49,788 bases of DNA from a virus, in IMG/VR virus record IMGVR_UViG_3300005529_000049, positions 1-49,788 of that record; one strand, given 5' to 3'. Of the stretch, positions 3,707 through 26,153 are shown in pieces. The notes under the pieces were generated by a model. That model was given only the letters and a program-made list of their open reading frames with translations, searched no databases and had not been told where the DNA came from. The translations under genes and the position numbers were made by a program. The stretch's first letter is position 1, and every line of letters begins with the position of its first letter.

Positions 3707-4151
3707 GCTCCTCGATGCGCCGATCCAGCCGTGCGAGTGTGGCGGTGACGTCGGAGGCGCGGCCGCCGCCGGCTTTGAACCGCTTGTATTTTTCTTCCCC
3801 GAACAGGGCGATCGCGACGCGCACCGGGTAGGCGGGTTTGATCAGTTTCCCGTTTTTGCGGTACGGCGTTTTCAGTCCGCCGCGAATGGTTTCCGCCGGG
3901 AGCACAGCGGTTTCGTTGCCGTCTTTGTCTTTGAGTCGGCGTTCGGGGATTTCGATGTCGGGTTCGTGATCCCAGCTTTCGGTTTCCAACTCGAGTTCGT
4001 TGAGCGCTTCGCGCTGGTCGTCGTCGAGTAAGCCGCGTTGCGGGATTTCGAACACTTCACCGTCGACGACGATTTCGACGCTCGCTAAAAACCCTGTCGC
4101 TTCGGCGGCCTGTTCGCGGGCCTGCTGCGGTGTCAACCGTTTGTCGGGCAT
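3639..4151 (-). CDS. tail assembly chaperone, G-type
   Basis: Assists tape measure folding and tail-tube assembly. It is about 170 residues, hydrophilic, and located between major tail protein and tape measure gene as in nearly all siphoviruses. ATG 4151 is preferred: GAGAGGG lies about ten bases upstream. An in-frame GTG at 4169 is possible but has no ribosome site. The last part overlaps the T-type frame (see 3275-3706). Identification rests on position, size and overlap rather than on a sequence motif. Confidence 0.85.
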   Translation of the reverse strand: MPDKRLTPQQAREQAAEATGFLASVEIVVDGEVFEIPQRGLLDDDQREALNELELETESWDHEPDIEIPERRLKDKDGNETAVLPAETIRGGLKTPYRKNGKLIKPAYPVRVAIALFGEEKYKRFKAGGGRASDVTATLARLDRRIEERERSDPKSVGSDSGVAAVADGD

Positions 4152-4198
4152 GGGGCTGTTCCCTCTCACCTATGGGGCTGTTTGTGGGGTTTCAGGCT

Positions 4199-4237
4199 CG
4201 CCGGGTGGGTGAACAGCCCCTGAACCCCCACCCGGCG
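4199..4237. terminator. hairpin between major tail protein and chaperone genes
   Basis: A perfect 11-bp inverted repeat pairs CGCCGGGTGGG (4199-4209) with CCCACCCGGCG (4227-4237) across a 17-base loop. It starts about ten bases after the stop codon of the abundant major tail protein. No U tract follows in the leftward direction, so it may be a partial terminator or an mRNA-protecting end. Confidence 0.55.
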
Positions 4238-4246
4238 AACGGGGGG

Positions 4247-5044
4247 TTATGAGCCGACGTCGGCCATCGCCGCCCAGCCGGTGCCGCCCACCCACGTGTA
4301 CTTCAGGATGGGCCGGTACACGCCGTCGACGACCGCCATGAAGAACGAGTCGGGCAGCGGCTCATATTCGAGCTCGGCGGCTTCGGAGTCCTTCTTGTCT
4401 TTCTTCGACGCGCCGATGTTGCTCAGCCGGCACAGCGAATACCCGTCCACCACATACACGGGCAGGCCGCGTTTGTTGAACTGCGACACCAACAGGATTT
4501 GGCGTTCCACGTTGTCGGCGTCGACCGGTTTGGCCCACCCGGCGGGCAGCATGCCGGGCGCTTCGACGAGCACGTTGCCGTTGGCGTCGTTGAGCGGCAG
4601 GTTGTTACGCAGCCGCCGGATCAACGGTTTGGCGGTCTCCACCGCGCTGAACGAGAACGGCTCCGCGTCCTCGACGATGTCGGAGTCGTAGGGGAAATTG
4701 GATTGCAGAATCAGGAAGTCGTCGTTTCTGATTCTGGGTTTCGTGTTCGGCCCCATCGTGTCGCGGAACGCGCCGGCGATGTGGAATCCCTGGTTGGGGA
4801 GGTAGTTGTATTCCCATTCGCCGTTGATTTGGGTATAGGCGAGCAGGTCGTTGCGCCAGGTGCCGTCGAGGGCGAACGGCGAAAAGTTGACCGTCCCGTC
4901 CGGGTTGTGCGGGGAGATGTTGGTGGCGGCGCCGCGGGCGTCGCGGATCAACACCTGACGCAGCTTGCCGCGCTCCAGGAACCTGTTGTCGAGGTCGGCG
5001 AATCCGGCCGCATCCCAGGTTGCTCCGGTTGTTGGAAGTGCCAT
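4247..5044 (-). CDS. major tail protein
   Basis: Forms the tail tube. The 265-residue product starts MALPTTGATW at ATG 5044, with AAAGGA about ten bases upstream, the strongest ribosome site in the tail block, fitting a highly made protein. It lies between the tail terminator and the chaperone pair. The translation is beta-rich, with repeated DGTxxx and short aromatic strands, and has a lysine-rich loop near residue 215 (SKKDKKD). No Ig-like C-terminal domain is evident. A hairpin follows directly downstream. Confidence 0.88.
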   Translation of the reverse strand: MALPTTGATWDAAGFADLDNRFLERGKLRQVLIRDARGAATNISPHNPDGTVNFSPFALDGTWRNDLLAYTQINGEWEYNYLPNQGFHIAGAFRDTMGPNTKPRIRNDDFLILQSNFPYDSDIVEDAEPFSFSAVETAKPLIRRLRNNLPLNDANGNVLVEAPGMLPAGWAKPVDADNVERQILLVSQFNKRGLPVYVVDGYSLCRLSNIGASKKDKKDSEAAELEYEPLPDSFFMAVVDGVYRPILKYTWVGGTGWAAMADVGS

Positions 5045-24413: not shown

Positions 24414-24562
24414 GCCGCCCCCCGATGCACAAAAGTGAGGGCGATGCGGAACGGCTCACCCACCGCCGGACACATATAGCCGACCGTGTCCGTATGCGCC
24501 GAAACGTTGTTGGCTGCGGTACGCCGGACGGGTTGTAAACACACCGGGCACAGGGCGGTCAT
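24410..24562 (-). CDS. 50-residue zinc-ribbon protein
   Basis: Starts MTALCPVCLQPVRRTAANN and ends LTFVHRGAA. CPVC plus a later Cys and His fit one zinc ion. ATG 24562 overlaps the methyltransferase stop as ATGA. Function unknown. Confidence 0.65.
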   Translation of the reverse strand: MTALCPVCLQPVRRTAANNVSAHTDTVGYMCPAVGEPFRIALTFVHRGAA

Positions 24563-25995
24563 GCCGCCACCTCCACAACATCAAGCAGCCAACGAACAGC
24601 CGCTTCCGCTTGGGCACAGACGACGCCGTTGCCGATGATCCGCAACTGGTCATTACGCGACACGCCAGGCACTTGGGTGACCCAGCCGGCGGGCCAGCCC
24701 ATCATCCACTCACTGAAAACTGGTGCCAGCCTTGGGTTTCCGTTGCGGTTCGGCTCCGTCGGCGACGGAGCCTGGCGGGTCAACTGCTCCCAGCGGCGTA
24801 TCGCGGGCTCATATTTGCCCCACTGCGGGGTGCCGTGTAGTAGTGCGGTGTCGATGATTTGCTGGGTGTGGCCTTGGCGTGCGTCGGGATGACGCCCGCC
24901 GCCAGAGGCATCGCTGGCGGCGTGCGTCGGGAGGAACTCGCGCACCACACCCGGCAGCAGATGACCACCTGTGCCGTCGCTGACACTCGGCGTGGGCAGT
25001 AACGTTTCATTGCTGATCCGTGCTGCCACGCTCCACAAATTGAAATCGTCGAGCGTGCCAGGGCCACGGTCATCGGCGTCATGTTTCGCAGCCTGCGCCG
25101 TCGGCGTGGGCAATAGCGCGCTGGGGAGGTCGTAGTCGCTTGAGCCAGCGCGGCTCGCGGTAGCACCCTTGTGGTCTCGTCCGCGCGGTGTCGGCAGCAG
25201 CTCTACAGGTCCAGCACCGCCGACGACAGCATCAGATCGCCCGACGAGCCCCGCTGGTTCGGGCCACCCTTCGTGCCATCCGTCGCGCGAGGTGTCGGCA
25301 ACAGCCCACTTGCGCCCGGCACCTCCGCCCAACTGTCGAACTCCCGCGGCAAAATCCCCTGCGCAATCTCGATCGCCTGCTCCAACCCCGGTGCCGACCA
25401 ATGCTTCTGCGTCATCGCTTGGCGCGACGACCGTGCCGAACTCTTGGGGGAAGGCAACAATGAAAACCCTCCCCCGGAGGTGGCAGGCCCCGACCGCTGC
25501 AGCGGATACACAGCACCAGTCCGCATCGAACCTGAGGTCGGCCAAGTCTCCGAGAACGGCTCCGAGTCCTCGCAGAACAAGCTCAGAGTCTCCGTCTCCC
25601 ACACCATCCGTTGCGGATTCCACCGCGCGTAATGCTTTGACACTGAGCAGATTCCTCACATTCTCGATCACGACCCACCGCGGGCGCAGCGCATCTATCG
25701 CGCGGGCGAAGTCCGACCACAACCCCGACCTTGTGCCCGCACCCATGCCGGCCTGTTTCCCGGCGGAACTGATGTCCTGGCAAGGGAACCCGCCGCACAG
25801 CACATCGACAGGCTCAACCTGCGTCCAGTCGACGGTTGTGATGTCATGCAGGTTCGGCACACCAGGCCAGCGGTGCGCCAACACTTTCGACGCCGCTGGG
25901 TCGTTTTCGCAATGCCACACCACGCGGCCTCCGAACACATGCTCGACAGCCAAATCCAAACCACCCCCGCCGGAGAAAAGCGAACCTATCCTCAT
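24559..25995 (-). CDS. DNA cytosine-5 methyltransferase
   Basis: Probably protects phage DNA from restriction. 478 residues from ATG 25995 (ATGA overlap). Motif I is MRIGSLFSGGGGLDLA, motif IV GGFPCQDISSAG with catalytic Cys72, motif VI IENV (110-113), motif VIII HLRGRVFIVAFP and motif X RIIGNGVVCAQAEAA near the end. The target-recognition region contains repeated LLPTP segments and EWMMGWPAGWV. No partner restriction gene is visible. Residues 118-264 are overlapped by another frame that also looks protein-like (25203-25643). Confidence 0.92.
   Translation of the reverse strand: MRIGSLFSGGGGLDLAVEHVFGGRVVWHCENDPAASKVLAHRWPGVPNLHDITTVDWTQVEPVDVLCGGFPCQDISSAGKQAGMGAGTRSGLWSDFARAIDALRPRWVVIENVRNLLSVKALRAVESATDGVGDGDSELVLRGLGAVLGDLADLRFDADWCCVSAAAVGACHLRGRVFIVAFPQEFGTVVAPSDDAEALVGTGVGAGDRDCAGDFAAGVRQLGGGAGRKWAVADTSRDGWHEGWPEPAGLVGRSDAVVGGAGPVELLPTPRGRDHKGATASRAGSSDYDLPSALLPTPTAQAAKHDADDRGPGTLDDFNLWSVAARISNETLLPTPSVSDGTGGHLLPGVVREFLPTHAASDASGGGRHPDARQGHTQQIIDTALLHGTPQWGKYEPAIRRWEQLTRQAPSPTEPNRNGNPRLAPVFSEWMMGWPAGWVTQVPGVSRNDQLRIIGNGVVCAQAEAAVRWLLDVVEVAA
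25203..25643 (-). CDS. overlapping frame inside the methyltransferase, methylase-tail-like
   Basis: 146 residues from GTG 25643 (AGGA about nine bases upstream), wholly inside the methyltransferase gene in another frame. It reads HYARWNPQRMVWETETLSLF, SETWPTSGSMRTGAVYPL, SLLPSPKS and GLLPTPRATDGTKGG. These are the elements usually found in the C-terminal region of phage C5 methylases or in small proteins beside them. It stops at 25203, right where the LLPTP series continues in the main frame; a -1 shift would join the two. Either a genuine dual-coding gene or a trace of an old fusion; expression unproven. Confidence 0.55.
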   Translation of the reverse strand: MSKHYARWNPQRMVWETETLSLFCEDSEPFSETWPTSGSMRTGAVYPLQRSGPATSGGGFSLLPSPKSSARSSRQAMTQKHWSAPGLEQAIEIAQGILPREFDSWAEVPGASGLLPTPRATDGTKGGPNQRGSSGDLMLSSAVLDL

Positions 25996-26153
25996 CGCCC
26001 GACCAGCCTCCGCAGCTTGCGCACATTGGTGCCACGCGGGCATTTACGATGCGCGGGGCCTTGAGATGTTTCGCGCAAGGGCCGTGAGTGACGGTTCAGA
26101 ATTGGCTTGCCGCAGCGCGGACACACGTGGTCCTGGGAGGGGATGTCGGTCAT
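25992..26153 (-). CDS. 53-residue zinc-finger protein
   Basis: Starts MTDIPSQDHVCPRCGKPILN and ends VRKLRRLVGR. CPRCG, then H and C in AHRKCPRG make one zinc site, with a basic tail suitable for nucleic acid binding. ATGA overlaps at both ends. Confidence 0.68.
   Translation of the reverse strand: MTDIPSQDHVCPRCGKPILNRHSRPLRETSQGPAHRKCPRGTNVRKLRRLVGR

Follow-up and report, generated by a model that had tools for sequence, protein, structure and literature searches.

Does the second open reading frame inside a viral C5 methyltransferase gene encode a protein of its own, and if so, what part does that protein take in the enzyme? The window, meaning the whole stretch of DNA analysed here, is a virus record of 49,788 bases. 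An earlier note on it had described two protein-like frames overlapping at 25203-25643, with HYARWNPQRMVWETETLSLF, SETWPTSGSMRTGAVYPL, LLPSP and LLPTP in one and FDADWCCVSAAAVGACHLRG, followed by RVFIVAFP, in the other. Both frames and all of these peptides are present as described. Here, the methyltransferase frame is called A and its product alpha, and the nested frame B and its product beta (Table 1).

We consider it likely that a C5 methyltransferase of two chains is encoded here in overlapping frames, with beta made from its own start and the two chains associating. Judged on sequence alone, both frames are under selection, and beta has a conserved start codon and ribosome-binding site of its own.

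Alpha is a C5-cytosine methyltransferase by sequence and fold, with methylation itself inferred. It matches Pfam PF00145 (E=5.8e-35, residues 17-203) and TIGR00675 dcm, and motifs I, IV (PCQ), VI (ENV), VIII and X stand in order, as the assignment demands. In the single-chain AF2 model, the core is confident and M.HhaI-like (residues 17-205 and 405-494 mostly at pLDDT >90; Foldseek against M.HhaI, E=2.1e-14), and the LPTP region (residues 215-392, pLDDT <50) is disordered. The pairing of the motif IX-like PRLAPVFSEWMMGWPAGWVT with RKLHPRECARVMGYPDSYKV of M.HhaI rests on a second part of the profile alignment, which scores low. The open frame reaches 26043, but a start there is probably 16 codons too early, because ATG 25995 shares ATGA (25992-25995) with the stop of a small Cys-containing gene upstream.

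Table 1. Features of the overlapping alpha and beta frames, in positions of the window
Feature	Position	Strand	Remarks
Alpha ORF, frame A	26043..24559	minus	494 codons/aa; C5-cytosine methyltransferase domain
Alpha chain from probable start ATG 25995	24559..25995	minus	478 aa
Alpha motif IV GGFPCQD (catalytic PCQ)	25774..25794	minus	G85, P87, C88 invariant in alignment A2
Alpha motif VI ENV	25657..25665	minus	E127, N128, V129 invariant
Beta Shine-Dalgarno-like GAGGA	25653..25657	minus	made from alpha Arg130 rare codon AGG
Beta start codon GTG	25641..25643	minus	created by alpha Ser134 AGT
Beta chain, frame B	25203..25643	minus	GTG 25643 to TAG 25203; 146 aa; nested in alpha
Beta N-domain (RWNP..WETxxLxLF..SETWPTSGSMRTGxxYPL)	25494..25643	minus	dual-coded with alpha between motifs VI and VIII
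Alpha motif VIII GACHLRGRVFIVA	25453..25491	minus	dual-coded; H188, R190, R192, F194 invariant
Beta LLPSP segment	25446..25460	minus	read from sequence; A1 columns T65/P66 nearly invariant
Alpha spacer, A-frame shadow of beta tail	25207..25443	minus	open, unconstrained, by substitution phase and AF2 pLDDT <50 (residues 215-392)
Beta LPTP module LLPTPRATDGTKGGPNQRGSSGDLMLSSAV	25215..25304	minus	same module in frame B at 34 loci, in frame A at 9 loci
Alpha LPTP modules LLPTPRGRDHKG, LLPTPTAQAAK, LLPTPSVSDGTGG	24970..25200	minus	begin right after beta stop; substitution phase at A third positions returns
Alpha motif IX-like PRLAPVFSEWMMGWPAGWVT	24676..24735	minus	aligns with M.HhaI RKLHPRECARVMGYPDSYKV
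Alpha motif X IIGNGVV	24619..24639	minus	G471, N472, V474 invariant

Frame B lies at +1 relative to A, with the second codon position of B on the wobble position of A. Beta matches phrog_1008 (E=2.6e-19), as does the C-terminal half of alpha, and this family matches 95 of 96 aligned beta sequences. Pfam and NCBIfam searches with beta gave no family above cut-off. The AF2 model has a confident N-domain with a small beta sheet (residues 1-50, pLDDT about 90), for which searches by sequence and by fold found no match in the PDB. Records of beta-bearing genes usually annotate only frame A, as in DLane, prophi104-2, a Vibrio phage and a Bacteroides plasmid. In mycobacteriophage Babsiella, gp55 (L002:2030-2338) is annotated in frame B with a start that is too late, leaving a truncated product without the N-domain.

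A tblastn search with beta matched 312 phage records. Scanning IMG/VR with A and B gave 160 loci, and in practically all of them B lies in the +1 frame and overlaps motif VIII of A. The loci added by scanning bacterial and archaeal genomes contain 35 B-domain matches, 34 of them with the same overlap. Taking all loci together, matches to the B N-domain overlap the motif VIII region of alpha in relative frame 1 in 196 cases, with a single exception. A plasmid search returned 4 distant records, and a search of E. coli DNA only two matches, both prophage methylases. A sequence-related cytosine methylase from an E. coli prophage (L250:3854-4615) is marked as a pseudogene and has an internal stop. 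Five beta matches of equal score (L217, L218, L219, L221 and L222) lie at separate sites on one Roseovarius MAG chromosome (OX638333.1).

We sorted 115 non-redundant loci by the frame that holds the C-terminal motifs. The fused group (53 loci, including the window) has motifs IX and X in A. The split group has both in B, with A mostly ending just past motif VIII; it counts 15 loci in the shuffle test described below (three loosely assigned) and 12 in the wobble test. Its members include Kingsley (L003), Ovechkin (L001) and loci L021-L030, and since motifs IX and X are in B there, B is the C-terminal coding frame in these homologues. Finally, the EcoHK31I-like group has 47 loci with no detected window-like C-part; in those that were read, motif X is in A, and LPTP units and a motif IX-like EWLMGFPxGWT are in B. 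Groups were assigned by tblastn of the C-part of the window gene, and a few members are perhaps misplaced.

Some loci have unusual layouts. In L018 (3752-6432), a long LPTP array in frame B leaves about 2.8 kb between motif VIII and the C-terminal motifs. In L101, L103, L133 and L162, alpha seems interrupted before the motif VIII region, where the matched segments A and VIII are separated by gaps; these are possibly insertions like the ShiLan/homing-endonuclease ones (PMC11855218).

The position of substitutions within codons differs along the gene. Among pairs of fused loci, the share at third positions of A falls from 0.67 ahead of the overlap to 0.46 in the overlap core and 0.16 over the beta tail, and is 0.67 again past the beta stop; disjoint pairs give 0.56, 0.46, 0.19 and 0.60. 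In the tail, 0.69 of the substitutions between fused-locus pairs fall at third positions of B (62-69% across fused loci), and 0.72 when the window is compared with all loci. As tail substitutions sit at third positions of B, residues 201-279 of A are taken as an open, unconstrained spacer. By substitution phase, the constrained frame runs A, A+B, B and A along the gene: from motif VIII to the beta stop only B is constrained, and past that stop it is A again.

The beta stop TAG (25205-25203) overlaps two codons of A just before the A-frame LLPTP at 25200. In more than 20 loci the stop comes just ahead of the first LLPTP of frame A; in other loci it falls exactly at motif IX. Frame B holds the module LPTPRATDGTKGGPNQRG or a near variant at 34 loci and frame A does so at 9, and at the level of predicted peptides the module is kept whichever frame carries it. 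More tentatively, and with real doubt on our side, LPTP recognition modules may be shuffled between the two subunits, an indel and a stop at an LPTP boundary moving a module from beta to alpha, and phages may thereby change target specificity. The earlier note had also raised the fusion of two ancestral overlapping genes, which is better described as a single pair of overlapping genes, alpha and beta, with a split point that has slid.

The stop of B might also be used only in part. A programmed -1 frameshift at the end of B would join beta to the A-frame LPTP-IX-X portion, giving a long beta and restoring a continuous LPTP array. Such a shift was part of the earlier proposal, and on paper it does join the frames at the stop, whose fixed place before the first A-frame LLPTP in the loci just mentioned speaks in its favour. 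The junction, however, has no shared sequence, and canonical heptamers occur in the last 25 codons of B at only 5 of the 53 fused loci against 11.5 expected, so a slippery heptamer ahead of the 0-frame stop, the mark of this mechanism, is not met in this set. Furthermore, alpha is open through the beta tail in 52 of these 53 loci against 14.3 expected from synonymous shuffles of B, which would be unnecessary were beta supplying motifs IX and X. We regard the frameshift as improbable.

Little credit can likewise be given to beta being translated but no methyltransferase subunit at all, that is, an independent small protein such as a regulator or an anti-restriction factor. In the split homologues frame B continues into the enzyme motifs IX and X, and the LPTP module belongs to beta at some loci and to alpha at others. 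What such a protein would explain is an N-domain without known relative and a free copy of beta in L198, an Actinomycetota MAG. There, an overlapping alpha/beta pair is followed by a second, free-standing beta (3737-4504) that keeps the conserved blocks although motif VIII and GNAVVPQ (motif X) have gone from its alpha frame. An intact free beta despite a degraded alpha frame also counts for the two-chain enzyme, although it is a single case.

As for selection across the overlap, we measured mean column identity at shared four-fold codons of A, each group separately. This wobble identity rises in all three homologue groups, from 0.34-0.42 at A residues 15-124 to 0.58-0.65 at residues 135-184. 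For the fused group it is 0.65 over the beta N-domain overlap versus 0.42 elsewhere (p=1.5e-9), and single wobble columns carrying the WP, SG and W residues of B reach 0.95-1.00. At motif VIII (A residues 185-192), where B is a variable linker, it is near background. Thus, across homologues the wobble bases of A are frozen where the conserved block of B sits.

Synonymous-codon shuffles of A predict how often B would be open, and shuffles of B do the same for A. Across the overlap, 114 of 115 homologues have an open B where 42.8 would be expected: 53 of 53 fused loci (23.3 expected), 15 of 15 split (5.9) and 46 of 47 EcoHK31I-like (13.6). Over the beta tail, A is open in 41 of 47 EcoHK31I-like loci, with 3.0 expected. 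For the window gene alone, the shuffle chance is 0.22 for an open B and 0.09 for an open A over the tail, which is not decisive, so the case for dual coding rests on the homologues.

The start of beta is conserved in the codons of alpha. Of 40 loci, 33 have a start codon seven codons before the W[ND]P of B, whereas 3.6 would be expected. Ser134 is AGT in 41 of 58 sequences versus 29 of 674 elsewhere (p=1.5e-34), and Arg130 is AGR (AGA/AGG) in 32 of 46 versus 85 of 1032 (p=1.5e-22). Gly131, which contributes to the beta Shine-Dalgarno, is GGR in 45 of 58 versus 688 of 1513. The window has AGG at Arg130 (25657-25653) and AGT at Ser134 (25643). The p-values take loci as independent despite their shared ancestry, a bias that disjoint pairs and within-gene shuffles reduce but do not remove.

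The frozen wobble bases, stop avoidance, embedded start and ribosome-binding site, frame-specific substitutions and the occurrence of the module in either frame together support true dual coding, as the earlier note had suspected. That the overlap goes beyond chance is borne out by the phrog_1008 match, the phage records and the open state of B. The note had held that it would be refuted if B lacked database homologues or were routinely broken by stops; homologues are abundant, and B is broken within the overlap in 1 of 115 loci.

GC-rich genes often have open alternative frames, and the two conserved peptides lie on the same bases (WPTSGxMR being LADLGYDA read at +1), but B as a mere shadow of what is conserved in alpha ahead of motif VIII is rejected, with hardly any probability left to it, by wobble columns far above background, the conserved start codon and ribosome-binding site, and the B-specific substitution phase past motif VIII. 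The chance is negligible, too, that B in fused genes is an untranslated fossil of a split ancestor, for even though motifs IX and X make alpha in principle self-sufficient, the constraint, the start codon and the beta-tail phase persist within the fused group.

The two-chain enzyme would be made and assembled as follows. Ribosomes on frame A would produce alpha, the SAM-binding chain with motifs I-VIII, IX and X and the later LPTP modules. Other ribosomes would initiate inside alpha at GTG 25643, through the Shine-Dalgarno embedded in alpha codons, and produce a beta made of the N-domain and the first LPTP segments, ending where its homologous continuation passes into the frame of alpha. The chains would then associate, with a recognition region assembled from both, and the enzyme would probably protect phage DNA from host restriction. 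Translation of beta, its association with alpha, DNA recognition and specificity of the LPTP segments, methylation activity and the anti-restriction role are all inferred, without data on peptides, ribosome profiling or activity. The lack of a solved relative for the beta N-domain and the disorder of the LPTP region in the single-chain AF2 model also weigh against this reading.

In hundreds of actinophage “DNA methylase” genes there appears to be a hidden second subunit that mostly goes unannotated, and cloning alpha alone could then yield an inactive enzyme or a misassigned specificity. The family also offers a clean natural example of a long, conserved same-strand gene overlap in dsDNA phages, where the ribosome-binding site of the second gene is built from rare codons of the first and the hand-over point slides between lineages. 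If module shuffling holds, target specificity would change by moving the frame hand-over along a double-coded gene.

Among the close known systems are the actinophage orphan methylases of the Dorothy_75/ShiLan family (PMC9957025, PMC11855218), and a beta-frame search matches the ShiLan methylase gene. PMC11855218 reports an out-of-frame HNH gene inserted in the Dorothy_75/ShiLan methylase; this is a separate insertion, and none is seen in the window gene. The searched passages of these two papers do not mention the conserved beta frame, and in open-access text we found no literature on an overlapping phage methylase subunit. The phrog_1008 family (“DNA methyltransferase”) matches beta, but it is built from annotated proteins and is silent on the overlap.

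Natural two-polypeptide C5 methyltransferases are represented by M.EcoHK31I, whose large chain has motifs I-VIII and X and whose small chain has motif IX, and by M.AquI, split after motif VIII into two chains (PMC3404938). M.AquI (alpha/beta, CYCGRG) is divided like the split homologues here. Its small chain carries motifs IX-X, whereas the window has both in alpha; an M.AquI-type arrangement is thus not met in the window, and the split relatives have both motifs in frame B.

M.EcoHK31I (and M.EaeI), recognising YGGCCR, is a two-polypeptide enzyme, as proposed for the window. Its small ORF lies inside the large one, in another frame. A second ORF nested in another frame and under selection is found in the present family, and those of loci L033-L083 that were read have the M.EcoHK31I-like partition, with motifs I-VIII and X in alpha and a motif IX-like segment in the nested beta. 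The window does not confine motif IX to the small chain, since PRLAPVFSEWMMGWPAGWVT is in alpha. By architecture, and with no sequence comparison made with M.EcoHK31I, the putative window enzyme resembles it. Unlike M.EcoHK31I, it keeps motif IX in alpha, and it has a beta that stops after its second LPTP segment and an alpha with a spacer, the shadow of beta.
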